This document shows, in pieces, positions 3,223-23,045 of a DNA stretch of 23,045 nucleotides. The stretch lies in the IMG/VR virus record IMGVR_UViG_3300025132_000320, positions 1 to 23,045 of that record; one strand, written 5' to 3'. The notes below the pieces were generated by a model. That model was not told the DNA's origin. It did no database searches and saw nothing but the letters and a program-made list of their open reading frames with translations. How positions within the stretch are numbered: the stretch's first letter is position 1; each line of letters opens with the position of its first letter. Made by a program: the position numbers and the translations under genes. Source of the DNA: a virus.

Positions 3223-3765
3223 ATGCCTGCAGTTTGGCCCGCTTTTCAATCACAATTAACTAGTTACTTACAAAGTAATAAAGCAAAATCAGAAGACGAG
3301 ACTGCAAAGAAAATAGGACAATTATATCATCAAGCAGTAAAAACTGCAATGCCTATATTAGTACCAGGTGCTACACCAATAGGAGGAAGTGCAAGTATTA
3401 TTGCTAATGGATTTAAGGCTTCATTTAAATTAGGAAAAGCTTTAGGAAAAATTCCTGCCAATCCAGCAATTTGGACACCTGCAGGAGTAGCTGTCGTTAC
3501 ATATTGGACCGGTAAAACATTTATGCCTGCTGCTCCAGCGCCCGGAGGTGCACCGCCAGCTACAACACATGTCACAACTATACCAGGGATTCCTCCTATA
3601 CCACAAATTTATGGAGCAATGCAAGCTAAAACAGCTGTAGGAGTGGCTTCTGGCCTAGTTGGTGCATTTACAACTCATCTATTATCAGTGAATGGATTAT
3701 GGACAGGATTTACTCCATCTGTACCTCCTGTTCCTTTACCATTTCCGTGGGTTGGAATAGCCTAA
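3223..3765 (+). CDS. Hydrophobic Pro/Gly/Ala-rich virion-associated protein, 180 aa, unknown
   Basis: Not recognised. Residues 1-45 are a helical, soluble-looking start. From about 46 on it is rich in Pro, Gly and Ala with few charges: LVPGATPIGGSASIIANGFK, an AVVTYWTGKTFMPAAPAPGG stretch, a PGIPPIPQ motif, a GVASGLVGAFTTHLL helix, and the end PSVPPVPLPFPWVGIA. One or two stretches could insert in a membrane. AAGGA just upstream and the 2-nt gap after the spike gene indicate coupling to the spike. A tail-tip or membrane-interacting role is an inference from position. PAAR proteins often follow spikes, but I see no PAAR metal-binding pattern. Confidence 0.75.
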   Translation: MPAVWPAFQSQLTSYLQSNKAKSEDETAKKIGQLYHQAVKTAMPILVPGATPIGGSASIIANGFKASFKLGKALGKIPANPAIWTPAGVAVVTYWTGKTFMPAAPAPGGAPPATTHVTTIPGIPPIPQIYGAMQAKTAVGVASGLVGAFTTHLLSVNGLWTGFTPSVPPVPLPFPWVGIA

Positions 3766-3779
3766 TTTCAGGTTAACTG

Positions 3780-3794
3780 ATATTTATTAAAAAG
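3780..3794 (+). promoter_or_regulatory. Repeated element ATATTTATTAAAAAG before the gene at 3805
   Basis: Second copy of the ATATTTATWWAAAAG element. It sits in a 39-nt gap and overlaps the AAGGAG ribosome site. It ends 10 nt before the ATG at 3805, where the gp25/gp6 gene run begins. Confidence 0.45.
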
Positions 3795-3804
3795 GAGAAT
3801 ACTA

Positions 3805-4266
3805 ATGAAAACCAAAACATTTGTAAAGTTATTACGTATGATAATTCGTGAAGAAGTTGGTAAAGCTATAAAAACTGCTTTGAATGAATCATCAATCAAT
3901 CAAGTTACCGATATTAATTTAAAAGAAATTGCAGAAGATCCTATGCCTAATAGACCTATAGCTAAAAAGCAATATGTTAAGGATAGTATGTTGAATGATA
4001 TACTTAATGAAACAGCAGCTATGCCTGCCGGCCAAGAAATGACTGATTGGAGTTCAATGAATTTTAAATCAGAAATGGCACAGTCATTTGGGAATCAAAG
4101 ACAACAAAATAATATTGCGCCAGTTGCAACTCAAGGTATTAATGGAGAGCCTGTTAATATGCAAAACGAAAAAGTTGCATCTGTTATGAATGCAATGACT
4201 AAAGATTATTCTGGATTGATTAAAGCAATTGATAAGAAAAATGGTAAAATGGGAATTAGTAAATAA
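3805..4266 (+). CDS. Unknown 153-aa protein at the head of the wedge genes
   Basis: Not recognised. The N-terminus (KTFVKLLRMIIREEVGKAIK, residues 4-23) is a strongly amphipathic basic helix of the kind seen at the start of phage structural or scaffold-associated proteins. The rest is polar and low in aromatics, with Asn/Gln-rich stretches (SFGNQRQQNNIAPVATQGIN) likely to be flexible. No membrane segment or enzyme motif. A strong AAGGAG (3792-3797) lies 7 nt before the start. The stop overlaps the next start as TAATG at 4264-4268, so it is coupled to the gp25-like gene. It may be a small tail or head accessory protein. Confidence 0.75.
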   Translation: MKTKTFVKLLRMIIREEVGKAIKTALNESSINQVTDINLKEIAEDPMPNRPIAKKQYVKDSMLNDILNETAAMPAGQEMTDWSSMNFKSEMAQSFGNQRQQNNIAPVATQGINGEPVNMQNEKVASVMNAMTKDYSGLIKAIDKKNGKMGISK

Positions 4267-4862
4267 TGGCTAGAACAATATATCAAATAGCGCCTATCGA
4301 TACTAATCGACAACAAGGAGTTGGCCTTTTATTGCCAATGAATAAATCAGCACATGCATCTAACCCTAATTTAAATTCTATATTAGGACAAACTACATCA
4401 GTTGGTAATGATTATGCAACTAAAGGTGGTAGTGGTGCTAGCGTATTTGCAATGTCTTATTCAACACAACAACAAGCTATAACTAATCTTAAAAATTTAT
4501 TAGCAACAAACAGAGGCGAAAGATATATGCAACCAGCATTTGGTACTAGAATTAAACAAGCAGTATTTCAACCTAATACAGAAAATTTAGAATTATTTCT
4601 TGAAGAAACAATTTCTGAGTCAATTGAGATGTGGTTGCCATATATTAAATTAGAAGGTGTTGATGTTATTCGTGATGTAGACAATTATTCTTTTGTAATT
4701 CAAGTTAATTTTTCAATTACCGAAACCGGCGCAAATCGTACAATTGTTATATTAGCTAATGAAAACAATATTGTAGTAACTGAAGAGCTAGACGGAGTTC
4801 AGAATGAAGCATTAACGGCGGTAGGAACATTTGGTGATACGTTTACTGCAGGATCATATTAA
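4266..4862 (+). CDS. gp25-like (GPW/W family) baseplate wedge and sheath initiator
   Basis: Homologues of T4 gp25 and P2 W join the wedge to the first ring of tail sheath. The diagnostic motif is clear: LLATNRGERYMQPAFGTRIK (about residues 78-97), with GER at 84-86 and PAFG at 90-93. An AVFQP follows, where the family has a [IL]FEP-like end. The C-terminal half has the expected beta strands (VIRDVDNYSFVIQVNFSITE). The protein is 198 aa against about 132 for T4 gp25. The extra length lies mainly in residues 27-58, a Ser/Gly/Asn-rich insert between the GVGLLLPMN strand and FAMSYST, plus a C-terminal tail after residue 170. The gp6-like gene follows 11 nt downstream, the usual W-J order. Confidence 0.88.
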   Translation: MARTIYQIAPIDTNRQQGVGLLLPMNKSAHASNPNLNSILGQTTSVGNDYATKGGSGASVFAMSYSTQQQAITNLKNLLATNRGERYMQPAFGTRIKQAVFQPNTENLELFLEETISESIEMWLPYIKLEGVDVIRDVDNYSFVIQVNFSITETGANRTIVILANENNIVVTEELDGVQNEALTAVGTFGDTFTAGSY

Positions 4863-4873
4863 GGAGATAAATA

Positions 4874-6727
4874 ATGGCAGAAATGATAAAAAAAGATGTA
4901 AGGTATTTAGGAAAAGATTTTAGTCAATTTAGACAAAATCTAATTACATTTGCCAAACAATACTTTCCAGGTACATATCAAGATTTTAATGAATCATCGC
5001 CTGGAATGATGTTTATGGAAATGTCTGCATATGTTGGAGATGTATTATCTTTCTATTCAGACCAAAATTTTAGAGAATCATTACTAAATAGTGCTCAGGA
5101 AGATGCAAATATAATTGCATTATCACATTTATTTGGATATAAACCAAAAGTAGGAACACCATCTCAAGTTAAATTAGATGCATATCAATTAGTACCAGCA
5201 ATTGGAAGTGGAGCTAATATTGCACCAGATTATAGATACGCCCTTTCAATAAAAAATGGCATGACTGTAGAAACACAAGATACCATTATATTTAGAACTC
5301 AAAATAATATAGATTTTAATGATAATGCTGATGTATCAGTATATGAAATAAATGAACAAGGTGAACCTACCAGATTTACATTAAAGAAAACAGTGTCTGC
5401 AGTTTCTGGTGAGGTTGTAGTAAATACATTTACATTTGAAGATCCAAAACAATATGACAAAATTTTATTACCAGAACATAATGTATTAGAAATATTATCT
5501 GTAGAAAGTGATTCTGGATATAGTTGGCACCAAACAGATTATTTAGCACAAGATACTATATTTGAAGATGTTGCTAATATTCCATTTAATGATCCAGAAT
5601 TGTCAGAATTTAGATCTACAGTTCCTTATATATTAAAATTGACAAGAACGCCTAGACGATATGTAGCTCGTGTTAGAGGAGATCTTCGAACTGAATTACA
5701 ATTTGGTGCTGGTATATCTTCTGATGCAGATGAAGAAATAATTCCTAATCCAAAAAATGTAGGAGCTGGATTAGAGTATTTACGAAGAACAACTACATCA
5801 GCTATTGACCCAACAAACTTTTTAGCTACTAGTACATATGGATTAGCTCCTAATAATGAAACATTGACAGTTACATATACGGTTGGAGGAGATGTTTCAG
5901 AAAATGTACCAGCTAATACATTGACAGAAAATCCAGCACCAGTTTATTTAAATGATAATCCTACAGTAGATTTAACAGATACAAAAGCAACATTAGCTGT
6001 AAATAATCCAGAACCGGCTCAAGGTGGAAACAAACGAGAGAGTATAGAAGCAATTAGACAAAATGCAATATCAGCATTTGCAGCTCAGAGTAGAGCTGTA
6101 ACAAGAGAAGATTATATAGCTAGATGTTATGCTTTACCAGCAAGATATGGAACAGTTGCGAAAGCATATGTTATTCAAGATACTCAACAAGATACTATGG
6201 ATCAATTATATCCGCAAGATACTATATCAAATCCATTGGCACTAAATTTATATACATTAGGGTATGATGGAAATGGTAATCTAACTGAATTAAATCTAGC
6301 ATTAAAAGAAAATTTACGTACTTACCTTTCTAATTTTAGAATGTTAACTGATGCTATTAATATTAAATCAGCACATATTGTTAATATAGGAATTGATTTT
6401 GAGATAATTCCACAGCCTAGTTATAATTCAAATGACGTTGTTATAAGATGTATTGAAAGATTAAAGGTATTATTTCATGTCGATCGTATGCAAATCAACG
6501 GAAGTATTAATCAATCAAATTTAATATCAGAATTAGATAAGGTAGAAGGAGTGCAAAGTGTTGCTAGTATTAATATTTATAATAAATTTGATGGTAGTTA
6601 TTCTAACGTTGTTTATGATACCAGTACAGCCGTAAAAAACAATATTATTTATCCGTCATTAGATCCGATGATATTTGAAGTAAAATATCCAGATTCGGAT
6701 ATTAAAGGAAGGATAGTTAAGCCGTAG
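4874..6727 (+). CDS. gp6-like (J family) baseplate wedge protein
   Basis: Forms the ring of wedges that closes the baseplate, as T4 gp6 and P2 J do. The N-terminal signature DFNESSPGMMFMEMSAYVGD (about residues 38-57), followed by LSFYSDQNF, matches the family pattern (Y/F-N-E-x-x-PG-x-x-x-x-E-x-x-AY-x-x-D-x-L-x-x-Y-x-D). A second family segment is VTREDYIARCYALPARYGTV (about residues 409-428), next to a run of strands. The 617-aa length is close to T4 gp6 (about 660 aa). GGAGATAAATA precedes the ATG, the same ribosome-site context seen before the gene at 390. It lies directly downstream of the gp25-like gene and upstream of the DNRLRE-like gene. Confidence 0.9.
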   Translation: MAEMIKKDVRYLGKDFSQFRQNLITFAKQYFPGTYQDFNESSPGMMFMEMSAYVGDVLSFYSDQNFRESLLNSAQEDANIIALSHLFGYKPKVGTPSQVKLDAYQLVPAIGSGANIAPDYRYALSIKNGMTVETQDTIIFRTQNNIDFNDNADVSVYEINEQGEPTRFTLKKTVSAVSGEVVVNTFTFEDPKQYDKILLPEHNVLEILSVESDSGYSWHQTDYLAQDTIFEDVANIPFNDPELSEFRSTVPYILKLTRTPRRYVARVRGDLRTELQFGAGISSDADEEIIPNPKNVGAGLEYLRRTTTSAIDPTNFLATSTYGLAPNNETLTVTYTVGGDVSENVPANTLTENPAPVYLNDNPTVDLTDTKATLAVNNPEPAQGGNKRESIEAIRQNAISAFAAQSRAVTREDYIARCYALPARYGTVAKAYVIQDTQQDTMDQLYPQDTISNPLALNLYTLGYDGNGNLTELNLALKENLRTYLSNFRMLTDAINIKSAHIVNIGIDFEIIPQPSYNSNDVVIRCIERLKVLFHVDRMQINGSINQSNLISELDKVEGVQSVASINIYNKFDGSYSNVVYDTSTAVKNNIIYPSLDPMIFEVKYPDSDIKGRIVKP

Positions 6728-6737
6728 GAGAAAAAAT

Positions 6738-7907
6738 ATGAATAGAATATATTACGCAGAACGAGATACAACATTATATGAAAAACATTCTGATCGAAAT
6801 ACTGGCCGAGATGAAGTATTAGAGTTAGTTAAAATTGCATCTGGTTCGCGTCATTTTGAAGGCGATATTAATTTAGGAATACAAGAAAATACTTATAATA
6901 GTAGAATACTAATAGACTTTGGTACAGAAATAAATGCATTGTCTCAATCAATTGTAAATGAAGAAATTCCATTATTAGGAAATACTCCGTTGAGAACTAG
7001 TGTATTTTTAAGTTTGAAATCATCGACCGCATCTGATATACTTAGATCTTATACAATAAAAGCTTATCCAGTATCTCAATCATGGGAAGAAGGATTAGGA
7101 CATTCTTCTGATCAACCAGAATCTAATATAGGAGCTTCATGGTTGTATAGATCTGGCGATGCTAAAGCACAAGTAGCCATACCATGGACAACTGGTTCAG
7201 TACATAGTGATGGTACATCAGCAGGTACGTCAGAACCATTGGGCGGTGGGTCATGGATAACTGGTTCTGGATTTGAAGCTTCTCAATCATTTCAAAATGA
7301 AATACCTGATTTAAGAATAAATGTAACAGATATTGTACAAAAATGGTTAAATGGGAATGCAACTAATAATGGATTTATAATTAAACGTCCTTACGCAGAT
7401 GAAGTAGATGGTGTAGTTCGTGGTTCATTAAAATTCTTCGGCCGAGATACTCATACAATATTTGTACCAAGATTAGAAGTATGTTGGGATGATAGTGCAA
7501 TTGGAACTTCTGACAATGTTATTACTAGTAATACATATGTGCCATACTTTAAAAATATAAAAGCAGAATATAGAACATCAGAGATTGCTAGATTTTTTGT
7601 AGGAGTTCGTCCAGAATTTCCAACCAGATCATATGCAACATCATCATTTTATATAACAAAAGATCAACTACCTGTATCAAGTTCTTATGAAATTATTGAT
7701 TCAATAACAAATGATGTCATCATTAAAGATGAAAAAGAATTTGGCAATTCAACAACAAAAATAAGTACAAATCTTAATGATGGTAGTTTCTTTGATTTAA
7801 GAATGGATAGTTTTATGCCAGAAAGATATTATAAAATTAAGTTAACATGTAGGAGATCATATGATACACAAACGTTTGATGATTTCTATTTTAAAGTAGT
7901 GAATTAA
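6738..7907 (+). CDS. DNRLRE-like virion protein, 389 aa
   Basis: Residues 1-255 look like the DNRLRE beta-sandwich fold found in secreted and phage adhesion or adaptor proteins. It starts with IYYAERDTTLYEKHSDRNTG, has the segment DILRSYTIKAYPVSQSWEEG, then DLRINVTDIVQKWLNGNATN and GFIIKRPY, and closes with a final strand near FVPRLEVCW. The C-terminal 130 residues (from about 270) form a separate beta-rich domain, probably for binding a partner. It sits between the gp6-like and the larger wedge genes, so a baseplate or fibre-attachment role is likely. AGGAG lies 8 nt before the start. T4 places other wedge proteins nearby, but I cannot match this to a named T4 protein. Confidence 0.7.
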   Translation: MNRIYYAERDTTLYEKHSDRNTGRDEVLELVKIASGSRHFEGDINLGIQENTYNSRILIDFGTEINALSQSIVNEEIPLLGNTPLRTSVFLSLKSSTASDILRSYTIKAYPVSQSWEEGLGHSSDQPESNIGASWLYRSGDAKAQVAIPWTTGSVHSDGTSAGTSEPLGGGSWITGSGFEASQSFQNEIPDLRINVTDIVQKWLNGNATNNGFIIKRPYADEVDGVVRGSLKFFGRDTHTIFVPRLEVCWDDSAIGTSDNVITSNTYVPYFKNIKAEYRTSEIARFFVGVRPEFPTRSYATSSFYITKDQLPVSSSYEIIDSITNDVIIKDEKEFGNSTTKISTNLNDGSFFDLRMDSFMPERYYKIKLTCRRSYDTQTFDDFYFKVVN

Positions 7908-19284: not shown

Positions 19285-19704
19285 ATGGCATGGAGATCAA
19301 AATCCAAAGTTCGGAAGAACGCAATAAAACATGGTTATAGAAGCGGCTTTGAACATAAAGTAGCAGATCAATTAACAGAATCAAAAACTAAATTTGAATA
19401 CGAAACTACGGTTATAGATTATATCAAACCACAAACCAATCATACATATACAATTGATTTTACATTACCAAATGGTATTTTAATTGAAACAAAAGGTAGA
19501 TGGGTATTAGAAGATCGAAAAAAACATCTATTAATCAAAAAACAACATCCAGAATTAGACATAAGAATGGTATTTCAATCAGCCAAAACAAAAATAAGAA
19601 AAGGCAGTAAAACTACATATGGAATGTTTTGTGATAAGCATGATATATTATGGTCGGAAAAGACAATACCGGAAAGTTGGTTACGTGAGAAAAAAAGCCA
19701 GTAA
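19285..19704 (+). CDS. T7 endonuclease I-type Holliday junction resolvase
   Basis: Cuts branched DNA such as four-way junctions, clearing replication and recombination intermediates before packaging. The protein is 139 aa (T7 gp3: 149 aa) and aligns along almost its whole length with T7 gp3: SGFEHKV, TKFEYE, NHTYTIDFTLPNGILIETKG, DRKKHLLIKKQHPELDIRMV, and the end IPESWLRE. The four catalytic residues of T7 (E20, D55, E65, K67) are all present as E23, D58, E68 and K70, each shifted by 3, so it should be active. GAGGAA lies upstream. T4 itself uses the unrelated endonuclease VII (gp49), so this phage combines T4-type tail genes with a T7-type resolvase. Confidence 0.95.
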   Translation: MAWRSKSKVRKNAIKHGYRSGFEHKVADQLTESKTKFEYETTVIDYIKPQTNHTYTIDFTLPNGILIETKGRWVLEDRKKHLLIKKQHPELDIRMVFQSAKTKIRKGSKTTYGMFCDKHDILWSEKTIPESWLREKKSQ

Positions 19705-19835
19705 AAAACTTGAGCTTACGAGAAATTTTTAATATATTCATATTAATAAAATTTTTTATTAAATTTATTTAAGAAAAACATTATTATTGAAAGTATTGAA
19801 ATGATAATGAAATAGTATAATTAATTAATTCGCAA
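19705..19835 (+). other. 131-nt AT-rich gap between the late and replication modules
   Basis: No coding region or tRNA is visible. It is the longest non-coding stretch in the window. It holds an almost pure A/T inverted repeat, ATTAATAAAA (19742-19751) with TTTTATTAAA (19754-19763). This could be a weak terminator, a stalled-fork site or a simple composition effect. A possible -10 box lies near the right end (see 19816-19821). Confidence 0.5.
19816..19821 (+). promoter_or_regulatory. Possible sigma70-like -10 box (TATAAT) before the primase
   Basis: TATAAT lies 14 nt before ATG 19836. The best -35-like TTGAAA copies are at 19796-19801 (spacing 14, short) and 19787-19792 (spacing 23, long), so the match is weak. 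It would fit an early or middle promoter for the replication genes. No Shine-Dalgarno precedes the primase, and transcription starting near 19827 would give a very short leader. Confidence 0.25.
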
Positions 19836-20762
19836 ATGAGCAAATTCTCTATCATAAATCTTCTTGAATCTGTGTTGGGTAAAGGTAAGATTAATTCTAA
19901 TGATAACGTTGCATTCCATTGTCCATTTTGTCATCATAATAAAAAGAAGATGGAAGTTAATATTGTTACTCAATATTGGCACTGTTGGGTATGTAATGCA
20001 GCTGGAAGAAAGTTACCTATATTATTTCGTAAGTTAAATGTTCAACGAGAAAAAATATCAAAATTAATAGCATTACTTGATGATGTAGGATGGCGACCAT
20101 CGAAAACAACTACAGATACTCCGGTATTACAATTACCCGAAGGATATAGACCATTATGGAAACTACAAGAAATGAGTCCGGAATTTAGAAACGCTGTACA
20201 TTACCTTAAAGGTCGTAATATTAATATCCATGATATTCTAAAATATAGAATTGGATATTGTAGAAAAGGTCCTTATAAAGGTAAAATTATTATTCCTAGC
20301 TATGATGCAAATGGAAGCTTAAATTATTTTGTAGCACGTGCATATTATGCTGAAGATAAATTTAAACATAAGAATCCTCCGGCTTCCAAAGATATTGTAG
20401 GATTTGAATTACATATAAATTGGAATATGCCTATTATATTAGTAGAAGGAGCATTTGATGCAATCTCTATAAAAAGAAATGCTATTCCATTATTTGGTAA
20501 GACTATATCAAACACATTGAAAAGACGAATTGTAGAAAAGGGAGTAAAGGACATTTATATATGTTTAGATTTAGATGCCCGAAAACAAGCTCTCGAGACA
20601 GCACAGTATTTTATGGCAAATGGATTAAATGTATATTTTGTAGATATAACAGGAAAAGATCCTAGTGATTTAGGATTTGAAAAAATAACAAATGTGTTAA
20701 ATGAAACACATATTATGAGTGAGACAGAATTAATGGAAAAGAAGATATTATGCGCACTATAG
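19836..20762 (+). CDS. DnaG/gp61-type DNA primase
   Basis: Makes RNA primers for lagging-strand synthesis, working with the replicative helicase (not in this window). Zinc-binding domain: CPFCHH (C29, C32) and WHCWVC (C50, C53; H49 next to it). TOPRIM domain: ILVEGAFDAISIK (acid E204) and CLDLDAR (D245 and D247), the metal-binding acids. Between them is a linker and an RNA-polymerase-like segment (KGKIIIPSYDANGSLNYFVA). The length of 308 aa is close to T4 gp61 (342 aa). No clear ribosome site precedes the ATG at 19836. Its last 13 nt overlap the start of the Mre11-Rad50 gene in another frame, so the two are coupled. Confidence 0.88.
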   Translation: MSKFSIINLLESVLGKGKINSNDNVAFHCPFCHHNKKKMEVNIVTQYWHCWVCNAAGRKLPILFRKLNVQREKISKLIALLDDVGWRPSKTTTDTPVLQLPEGYRPLWKLQEMSPEFRNAVHYLKGRNINIHDILKYRIGYCRKGPYKGKIIIPSYDANGSLNYFVARAYYAEDKFKHKNPPASKDIVGFELHINWNMPIILVEGAFDAISIKRNAIPLFGKTISNTLKRRIVEKGVKDIYICLDLDARKQALETAQYFMANGLNVYFVDITGKDPSDLGFEKITNVLNETHIMSETELMEKKILCAL

Positions 20763-23045
20763 ATATTGGAATTGATAAAATAGATAAAATTTATCATATA
20801 GCAGATGTTCATGTTAGAAATGTAAAACGACATAAAGAATATCGATTAGTATTTAAACGATTATATTCCTATATAAAAAAGACAAAAACTGATAATTCTA
20901 TTATATATGTAGCTGGAGATATAGTACATGCTAAAACTGATATGTCACCAGAATTAATAGCAGTTGTATCAGATTTCTTTAAAAAATTATCAGATATAGC
21001 ACCTACATTAGTAATTACCGGTAATCATGACTGTAACTTAAATAATAGTTATAGAATGGACGCCCTCAGTCCGATCGTTAAAGCCTTGAATCATCAGAAT
21101 CTACATTATCTTAAAGACAATGGTATATATTTGATATCCGGAGTACACTTTAACGTATTATCAGTGTTCGATAAGCCAGTAGATTATATAAAAGCTGATG
21201 ATTTTGAAGGAGATTTTAAAATTGCTCTTCATCATGGTTCGGTACATAATGCTTCAACCGATGCTGGATTTACTTTAAGCAATACACATGTCACAACAAA
21301 AATGTTTGAAGGACATGATTTAGTATTATTAGGAGACATTCATAAACCACAATATTTAAATGATGAAAAAACTATAGCATATGCAGGATCATTAATTCAA
21401 CAAAATCATGGAGAAGCTTTAGGTCATGGGATAATGGTATGGGACATTGAGACTAAAAAATGTAATTTTATTGATATACCAAATGATTATGGATATTATA
21501 CGTATCAAATTGATAATGGAAAAATATTGAATCCTAGTGATAAAATACCATTACGTCCTAGATTAAGATTAAAGGTAAAAGATACCGATTCCGCAACATT
21601 AAAAGAAATAGTTGCTAAAATTAAATCTGAATATAAAGTACAAGATATTTCTATTCAAAAAATTAATGCATTAAATACTAATGATGAAAAGAAAAAAATT
21701 AATTTTGGTAATATAAGAGATGTAGAATGGCAAAACAAAGTTATAACAGAATATTTAACAGATGAATATGCATTAGATGATGAATTATTAGATACGATTA
21801 GGCATATTAATAGGACAGTACATAGTAAACTTCCGGCAAGTACATTGACTAGAAATATAACATGGCAACCTAAAAAGTTTGAATTTTCTAACATGTTTAG
21901 TTATGGAGATAATAATCAAATTGATTTTACAAACATGAATGGGTTATATGGGTTATTTGCTCCTAACGCATCTGGTAAATCAACATTGTTAGATGCTTTA
22001 TCATTTTGTTGTTTTGATAAATGTAGTCGTACCAAATATGCTAAACATGTATTAAATAATAAAAAATCTAGATTTCATTGTAAGTTCGAATTCGAGTTAG
22101 GTAAATATAAATACTTTATTGAACGTAATGCACGAAAACATAATAATGGACATGTTAAAGTAAATGTAGATTTTTGGAGAATAGACGAATCAGGAAACCA
22201 TGAAAGTTTAAATGGAGATCAAAGAGATTCTACAAATAAAATTATTCAACAATATTTAGGTACATATGATGATTTTGTTTTGACAGCATTATCACTACAA
22301 AATAACAATACTGGCTTTATTGATAAAAGTCAAAGAGAGAGGAAAGAATTGTTATCACAATTTTTAGATATTGATATATTTGAACAATTGTATCAAATTG
22401 GACATGATGATATTAGAGAAACAGCTGCTTTAATTAGAGAATATAAAAGAAAAGATTTTTCGACCGACTTATCATCAGCTAGAGATATTATAACTCAGTA
22501 TACAGGGTCTTATGAACAAATGAAGATTGATAAAAATGAACATGAAGAAATGAAAACAAATCTTAATGATATCATTTTTACTATGACAAAAGAGTTAAAG
22601 AAAGTTGATGATACATTAGCTAGTCCAGAAGATATTGATCAAGAAATTCAGAGTATAGAAGAAGATCTTGAAGACATTGTTATGTCAAGAGATACTCAAA
22701 AAGAAATGATTCGTGAACAAAAAAAGCTTATCAAAGAAACTACTCAAAAAATAAATAAGATCAATGAAAAATCTTTACAAGATGCATTAGTAGAACAAAA
22801 AGATTATCAAGACACGGTTGTTAAATTAAACAATGATCTTAAATTAAAACAATTAAAAATTCAACATGCCGAAAAAATGGTCTCTAAATTAGATAAGCAT
22901 GAATGGGATGAAGATTGTAGTTATTGTATGGCTAATCCGTGGTTACAAGAAACAAAACAAGTTGCAGATCTTTTACCTAAATTAATTGATGAAGAACAAG
23001 CTATTGAATTTGATATCAAACATTTTGAAGATGGTATTGCAAAAA
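20750..23045 (+). CDS. Mre11-Rad50 (T4 gp47-gp46) single-chain fusion, cut by window end
   Basis: One open frame of 765 codons up to the window edge, with no stop. Residues 1-370: Mre11-type phosphoesterase with motifs IADVH (D19, H21), GDIVH (D57, H60), TGNHD (N92, H93, D94), HHG (161-163) and GDIHKPQ (195-201), so the nuclease should be active. Linker about 340-375. Rad50/SbcC head from about 377: Walker A APNASGKST (404-412), then LLDALSFCCF. Q-loop at Q517 (LSLQNNNTG) and ERKELLSQFLD. Charged coiled coil from about 540. Zinc hook CSYC (C723, C726). Walker B and signature motif are expected downstream of the window. T4 encodes these as separate genes 47 and 46 in the same order. No internal ribosome site is seen near residues 370-400. 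Confidence 0.93.
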   Translation, partial: MRTIDIGIDKIDKIYHIADVHVRNVKRHKEYRLVFKRLYSYIKKTKTDNSIIYVAGDIVHAKTDMSPELIAVVSDFFKKLSDIAPTLVITGNHDCNLNNSYRMDALSPIVKALNHQNLHYLKDNGIYLISGVHFNVLSVFDKPVDYIKADDFEGDFKIALHHGSVHNASTDAGFTLSNTHVTTKMFEGHDLVLLGDIHKPQYLNDEKTIAYAGSLIQQNHGEALGHGIMVWDIETKKCNFIDIPNDYGYYTYQIDNGKILNPSDKIPLRPRLRLKVKDTDSATLKEIVAKIKSEYKVQDISIQKINALNTNDEKKKINFGNIRDVEWQNKVITEYLTDEYALDDELLDTIRHINRTVHSKLPASTLTRNITWQPKKFEFSNMFSYGDNNQIDFTNMNGLYGLFAPNASGKSTLLDALSFCCFDKCSRTKYAKHVLNNKKSRFHCKFEFELGKYKYFIERNARKHNNGHVKVNVDFWRIDESGNHESLNGDQRDSTNKIIQQYLGTYDDFVLTALSLQNNNTGFIDKSQRERKELLSQFLDIDIFEQLYQIGHDDIRETAALIREYKRKDFSTDLSSARDIITQYTGSYEQMKIDKNEHEEMKTNLNDIIFTMTKELKKVDDTLASPEDIDQEIQSIEEDLEDIVMSRDTQKEMIREQKKLIKETTQKINKINEKSLQDALVEQKDYQDTVVKLNNDLKLKQLKIQHAEKMVSKLDKHEWDEDCSYCMANPWLQETKQVADLLPKLIDEEQAIEFDIKHFEDGIAK

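Follow-up and report, generated by a model that had tools for sequence, protein, structure and literature searches.

A widespread single-chain Mre11-Rad50 fusion of the R555 type in a viral genome fragment

The joining of the nuclease Mre11 and the ATPase Rad50 in one polypeptide was described for Mimivirus R555 by Yoshida, Claverie and Ogata (Virol J 2011, PMC3175470), together with twelve more fusions in bacteria, plasmids, eukaryotes and a Bacillus phage. The same study found homologues to be abundant among aquatic viruses, and GOS scaffolds carrying them also held genes for a phage primase and a T7 gp3-like endonuclease. R555 departs from the Mre11 consensus at two sites: His replaces the third Asp of DXH..GDXXD..GNHD, and Asp replaces His206 of PfMre11 (PMC3175470). 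A review of jumbo phages describes SbcC/SbcD as practically universal in such phages, and fusions are not mentioned in the portion of that review drawn on here. The better-known pairs, T4 gp47/gp46 and Escherichia coli SbcD/SbcC, share domains, motifs, hook and presumed M2R2 assembly with the protein reported below, but they are made from two genes as two chains and carry GDxxD and GHxH, where that protein is one chain with GDxxH and GDxH.

The stretch of DNA that we analysed (hereafter the window) is a 23,045-bp IMG/VR fragment with a fusion gene of this kind at its 3' end (20750..23045, plus strand, as are all features given below). The gene is cut by the contig end after the first 765 of about 1050 codons: its open reading frame (20750..23044) begins with ATG, encodes 765 amino acids and runs without a stop to the contig end, so that the C-terminal ATPase lobe lies off the fragment. 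Within this single frame Pfam recognised Metallophos at residues 13-200 (E 2e-9) followed by AAA_23 at residues 380-641 (E 2e-12), the PHROGs match was the SbcC-like phrog_77, and a sequence search of the PDB returned Rad50, SbcC and Mre11. The fusion reported by the initial annotation is thus genuine, as the fused state of complete relatives also attests.

The phosphodiesterase (nuclease) domain of Mre11 occupies residues 1-240 (20750..21469; PF00149, alignment and the structural model described below). Alignment places motif I at D19xH21, motif II at residues 56-60 (GDIVH, 20915-20929), motif III at 91-94 (GNHD, 21020-21031), motif IV at 161-163 (HHG, 21230-21238) and motif V at 195-198 (GDIH, 21332-21343). 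The Rad50 N-terminal ATPase lobe follows at 21860..22369 (PF13476, PHROG 77 and the PDB matches to Rad50 and SbcC), with Walker A at residues 404-412 (21959-21985) and the Q-loop glutamine at Q517 (22298-22300). The remaining sequence (22370..23045; alignment and model) contains the ascending coiled coil and a CSYC zinc hook at residues 723-726 (22916-22927); the descending coil and the C-terminal lobe are off the contig. All of the motifs initially listed are therefore present, but two of them are not in textbook form, motif II reading GDIVH for GDxxD and motif V GDIH for GHxH.

An AlphaFold2 monomer model was obtained for a close relative (L005), 87% identical and with the same residue numbering as the window protein (mean pLDDT 80.5, pTM 0.45). 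Its domains run in the order phosphodiesterase (1-240), cap (247-305), helix-loop-helix (HLH; 325-359), a connection of 11 residues and the Rad50 head from residue 371, beyond which come the coiled coil, the hook near 723-726 and the C-terminal head. Among the best Foldseek matches in the PDB were Rad50 of the Chaetomium MRN complex (E 1.7e-19), E. coli SbcCD and Thermotoga maritima Mre11. Transferred to the window, the model places the DNA-binding cap subdomain, for which there are also Foldseek matches to the Mre11 chains 4o43 and 3qg5, at 21488..21664, the HLH at 21722..21826 and the linker of about 11 residues, from the HLH to the first strand of Rad50, at 21827..21859. The HLH of Mre11 docks at the base of the Rad50 coiled coil (PMC3175470 and structures cited there).

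In these features the window protein resembles R555, as far as the published description of the latter allows comparison. In both, one unbroken chain holds a Metallophos domain and, after it, an ABC ATPase of Rad50 type; both have GDxxH in motif II and Asp at the position of PfMre11 His206 in motif V (PMC3175470). The HLH and short linker of R555-type fusions are matched in the model, where the next strand begins at 371, and its linker falls in the range of 9-12 residues which, by the estimate of Yoshida et al., would suffice to span the 28 Å from the Mre11 C-terminus to the Rad50 N-terminus (PMC3175470). The two differ in virus and in size, R555 of an amoeba virus having 1351 amino acids and complete phage relatives of the window protein about 1055, mainly through a shorter coil.

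Relatives gathered from IMG/VR, GTDB genomes and phage records gave 168 loci with a clear match, of which 127 spanned the protein in full as a single open frame, 38 were contig-cut or otherwise partial and 3 were broken; every relative covering the whole protein (127/127) was thus a single frame. Complete relatives are about 1050-1080 amino acids long and carry in that frame the CxxC hook, SGME, Walker B (IDEG, in IDEGFG), a D-loop LD and an H-loop ISH. Hook and Walker B were found in 127/127, the H-loop and an SG[MY]E signature each in 125/127. The signature, Walker B and D-loop, which the initial annotation anticipated in the same frame past 23045, are hence all found in complete relatives, the window itself ending before them. 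Plain LSGGE and Walker B patterns gave no match because the family's signature is SGME and its Walker B is less hydrophobic. All the metal and nucleotide ligands that were expected are among the columns invariant across 28 diverse members. Of the 600 profile-search matches listed, 586 were relatives, and the family is therefore very common in aquatic virus metagenomes.

Cultured phages carry the fusion as well. The 1066-residue protein of Microcystis phage Mel-JY01 (WWT39521.1), annotated in its record merely as an AAA domain protein, aligns with 97% of the query at 43% identity and likewise is single copy with a primase upstream; it differs in its host, in being more divergent, in having a small additional gene that separates the primase from the fusion, and in a GIY-YIG gene in place of endonuclease I. 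ORF-075 of Tenacibaculum phage PTm1 (L086:3983-7939), recorded as a metallo-phosphoesterase, is actually a 1318-residue Mre11-Rad50 fusion with motif V GDxH as in the window, but it is very divergent (21% identity), with a longer coil and no primase neighbour. Chryseobacterium phage MA9V-1 has a similar 3,981-bp metallo-phosphoesterase gene matching Sphingomonas phage PAU (PMC10537231), and these two genes may encode fusions as well. A divergent fusion of 1202 residues with motif V GDIH is present but unannotated in a 735-kb uncultured phage (LR756501.1; L176:3983-7591). The joined architecture is thus found in phage and virus collections, in 127 complete single-frame loci and in cultured phages, and the statement in the initial annotation that no well-described natural case exists was mistaken, fusions having been described in 2011 (PMC3175470) and occurring in cultured phages Mel-JY01 and PTm1. 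Since the family was described then, the window fusion is not a new discovery; it is a functional-looking and widespread representative of a known type.

Some loci depart from the uninterrupted form. One member (L056) has a lone in-frame TGA in the coiled coil, near position 7066, in a fusion gene that is otherwise complete, probably a sequencing error or a mutation; a frame break makes another (L026) look shortened, and both interruptions could be sequencing errors. In a 484-kb uncultured phage (LR756508.1; L084:2938-7163) the gene is interrupted by about 900 bp directly after motif V (GDIHKRQ), and the frame picks up again at SGSLIQQN. The insert contains a zinc-finger ORF that includes a TnsA-like endonuclease domain (3659-4576) and may be either a mobile endonuclease element or an intron not recognised as such; a group I intron was considered, and Rfam gave no match.

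Upstream of the fusion in the window, a DnaG-type primase gene (19836..20762; PHROG 47) overlaps the fusion start by 13 bp and is preceded by a T7-type endonuclease I gene of the Holliday-junction resolvase family (19285..19704; PF05367, E 2e-55), so that 19285-23045 is arranged like the marine R555 homologues that adjoin primase and T7 gp3-like endonuclease genes. Among 147 loci with enough sequence, a primase lay directly upstream of the fusion in 145 and a T7-type endonuclease I no more than 4 kb upstream in 131. In six larger genomes examined, a RecA-family gene was present in five, and the fusion was the sole Metallophos match in four, with additional ones in the other two. Elsewhere in the window are baseplate wedge genes, gp25-like and gp6-like (4266-6727); the 617-residue wedge protein is 51% identical to that of Mel-JY01 and 42% to those of Flavobacterium immuto phages, phages in which no relative of the window's fusion protein was found.

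We consider it very probable that the window encodes a phage single-chain Mre11-Rad50 (SbcD-SbcC) of the R555 family that acts as an M2R2 end-processing clamp. What the data show is the conserved fusion with its motifs and fold, the genes beside it and a RecA-family gene in the same genomes. Two fused chains would pair via their Mre11 domains, via Rad50 heads that sandwich ATP and via the zinc hook to form the clamp, each nuclease being covalently tied to its own ATPase head and presumably docking in cis. The clamp would load onto DNA ends or hairpins and, if the nuclease is active, trim them using ATP; trimming may then yield 3' ends on which the phage-encoded RecA/UvsX-like recombinase could act in recombination-dependent replication. 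A resolvase, a primase, a recombinase and an end-processing enzyme would together fit such replication as it occurs in T4. The initial annotation proposed that fusion tethers nuclease and ATPase head at a fixed 1:1 ratio. The fixed ratio is soundly inferred, but it is not a new one, M2R2 being 1:1 already, and for that reason the fusion would mainly secure co-expression and docking in cis.

Motif V of characterised Mre11 nucleases contains a catalytic His, and the motif II consensus has Asp. With Asp in place of the former and His in place of the latter, nuclease activity of the fusion cannot be assumed. Alternatively, the fused protein may serve chiefly as an ATP-driven clamp or tether on DNA, the two changes weakening the nuclease or shifting its substrate. 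GDIH is near-constant in fusions (152 of 154 readable members, and also PTm1 and the 735-kb phage) and R555 carries the same Asp (PMC3175470), while all the unfused proteins examined, whether from phages or from cells, had GHxH. Against this, the remaining metal ligands are all invariant over the 28 diverse members, Asp is able to bind metal, and the nuclease domain is under strong purifying selection (pN/pS 0.19). We regard a predominantly tethering role as unlikely, though it is the strongest competitor of an end-processing clamp.

A second alternative, that T4 genes 47 and 46 were fused through loss of the stop between them, had been suggested initially from the identical gene order, and the PHROG 77 (SbcC-like) match can be added in its favour. 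In T4, however, two genes (46.2 and 46.1) lie between 47 and 46, and one small ORF separates the two genes in cyanophage S-PRM1 and Staphylococcus phage Stab22. The motifs of T4 gp47 are canonical (GDIFD, GHFH), where the window has GDxxH and GDxH as does R555; motif V is also canonical in S-PRM1, PaBG and E. coli SbcD, and Herelleviridae proteins combine GDLFH with GHYH. In trees of each half, T4 and S-PRM1 cluster with other unfused proteins, from phages and from cells, and lie away from the fusions. An origin from the T4 pair by stop loss is thus unsupported and highly improbable.

Least credible of all is that the join arose through faulty assembly or sequencing, or that two proteins are made via an internal start: about half of the members (59/123) do have some in-frame ATG, GTG or TTG shortly before the Rad50 part, but this start is not conserved, it is accompanied by a Shine-Dalgarno-like sequence in 1/123 members (a weak test, because the gene's own start passes in only 15/123), and the junction is under purifying selection. 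A separate gp46 from an internal start is not supported. The assembly join that the initial annotation wished to see excluded is excluded, because the same junction recurs in 127 complete loci from many independent metagenomes and in cultured phages, Mel-JY01 among them. At junction residues 356-376 pN/pS was 0.22, close to the 0.15-0.20 of the flanks, and the join is therefore constrained at the protein level.

In one lineage of gut phages the gene is divided inside Mre11, an arrangement for which a limited literature search found no report. It was seen in three MAG contigs (L091-L093) and four viral contigs (L177-L180; a side listing gives L177-L184). The nuclease lobe is encoded by a gene of 275-277 amino acids matching fusion residues 11 to about 255-266, and the partner gene (about 790-810 amino acids) begins with the strand-helix-strand of the cap and the HLH and continues into Rad50. 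A partner-protein model of modest confidence has strands at 15-22 and 49-56 flanking a helix at 28-42, further helices at 78-91 and 99-112, and Rad50 from 124. Profile comparison of the N-terminal part of the partner with fusion residues 241-371 gave E 7e-7 (probability 92), a coiled-coil control giving nothing, and the whole partner protein aligns from fusion residue 284 onward (E 1.5e-43). Where both genes are on one contig (L093, L177-L179), the cap-HLH-Rad50 gene lies downstream of the primase and the lobe gene across the primase in the opposite orientation; in L093 the two genes are at L093:1252-3633 (minus) and L093:5977-6804 (plus). L092 as fetched has the nuclease-lobe gene only, Rad50 genes being on other contigs of its bin.

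Motif V of the split lobes is GHIH, against GDIH in fused proteins. The split clade lies beside all fusions in the nuclease tree (support 74) and with the fused protein of the 735-kb phage in the ATPase tree (support 81); because the two trees disagree, only parsimony and the conserved location of the Rad50-bearing gene downstream of the primase favour a fused ancestor that underwent fission. It is possible, and we propose it tentatively, that the family is modular, with a lineage cut inside Mre11, and that the Asp of motif V tracks a tethered lobe and His an unfused or split one. If so, tethering altered how the nuclease lobe is held and works.

Beyond the 2011 report, our analysis adds 127 complete members, at least 586 relatives among the matches listed, a constant neighbourhood of primase and endonuclease I, and the lineage cut inside Mre11. 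A natural single-chain Mre11-Rad50, which available cultured phages encode, is a useful tool for fixing stoichiometry and for studying ATP-driven gating, and the split lineage would offer a direct test of whether it matters that the nuclease lobe is covalently attached.
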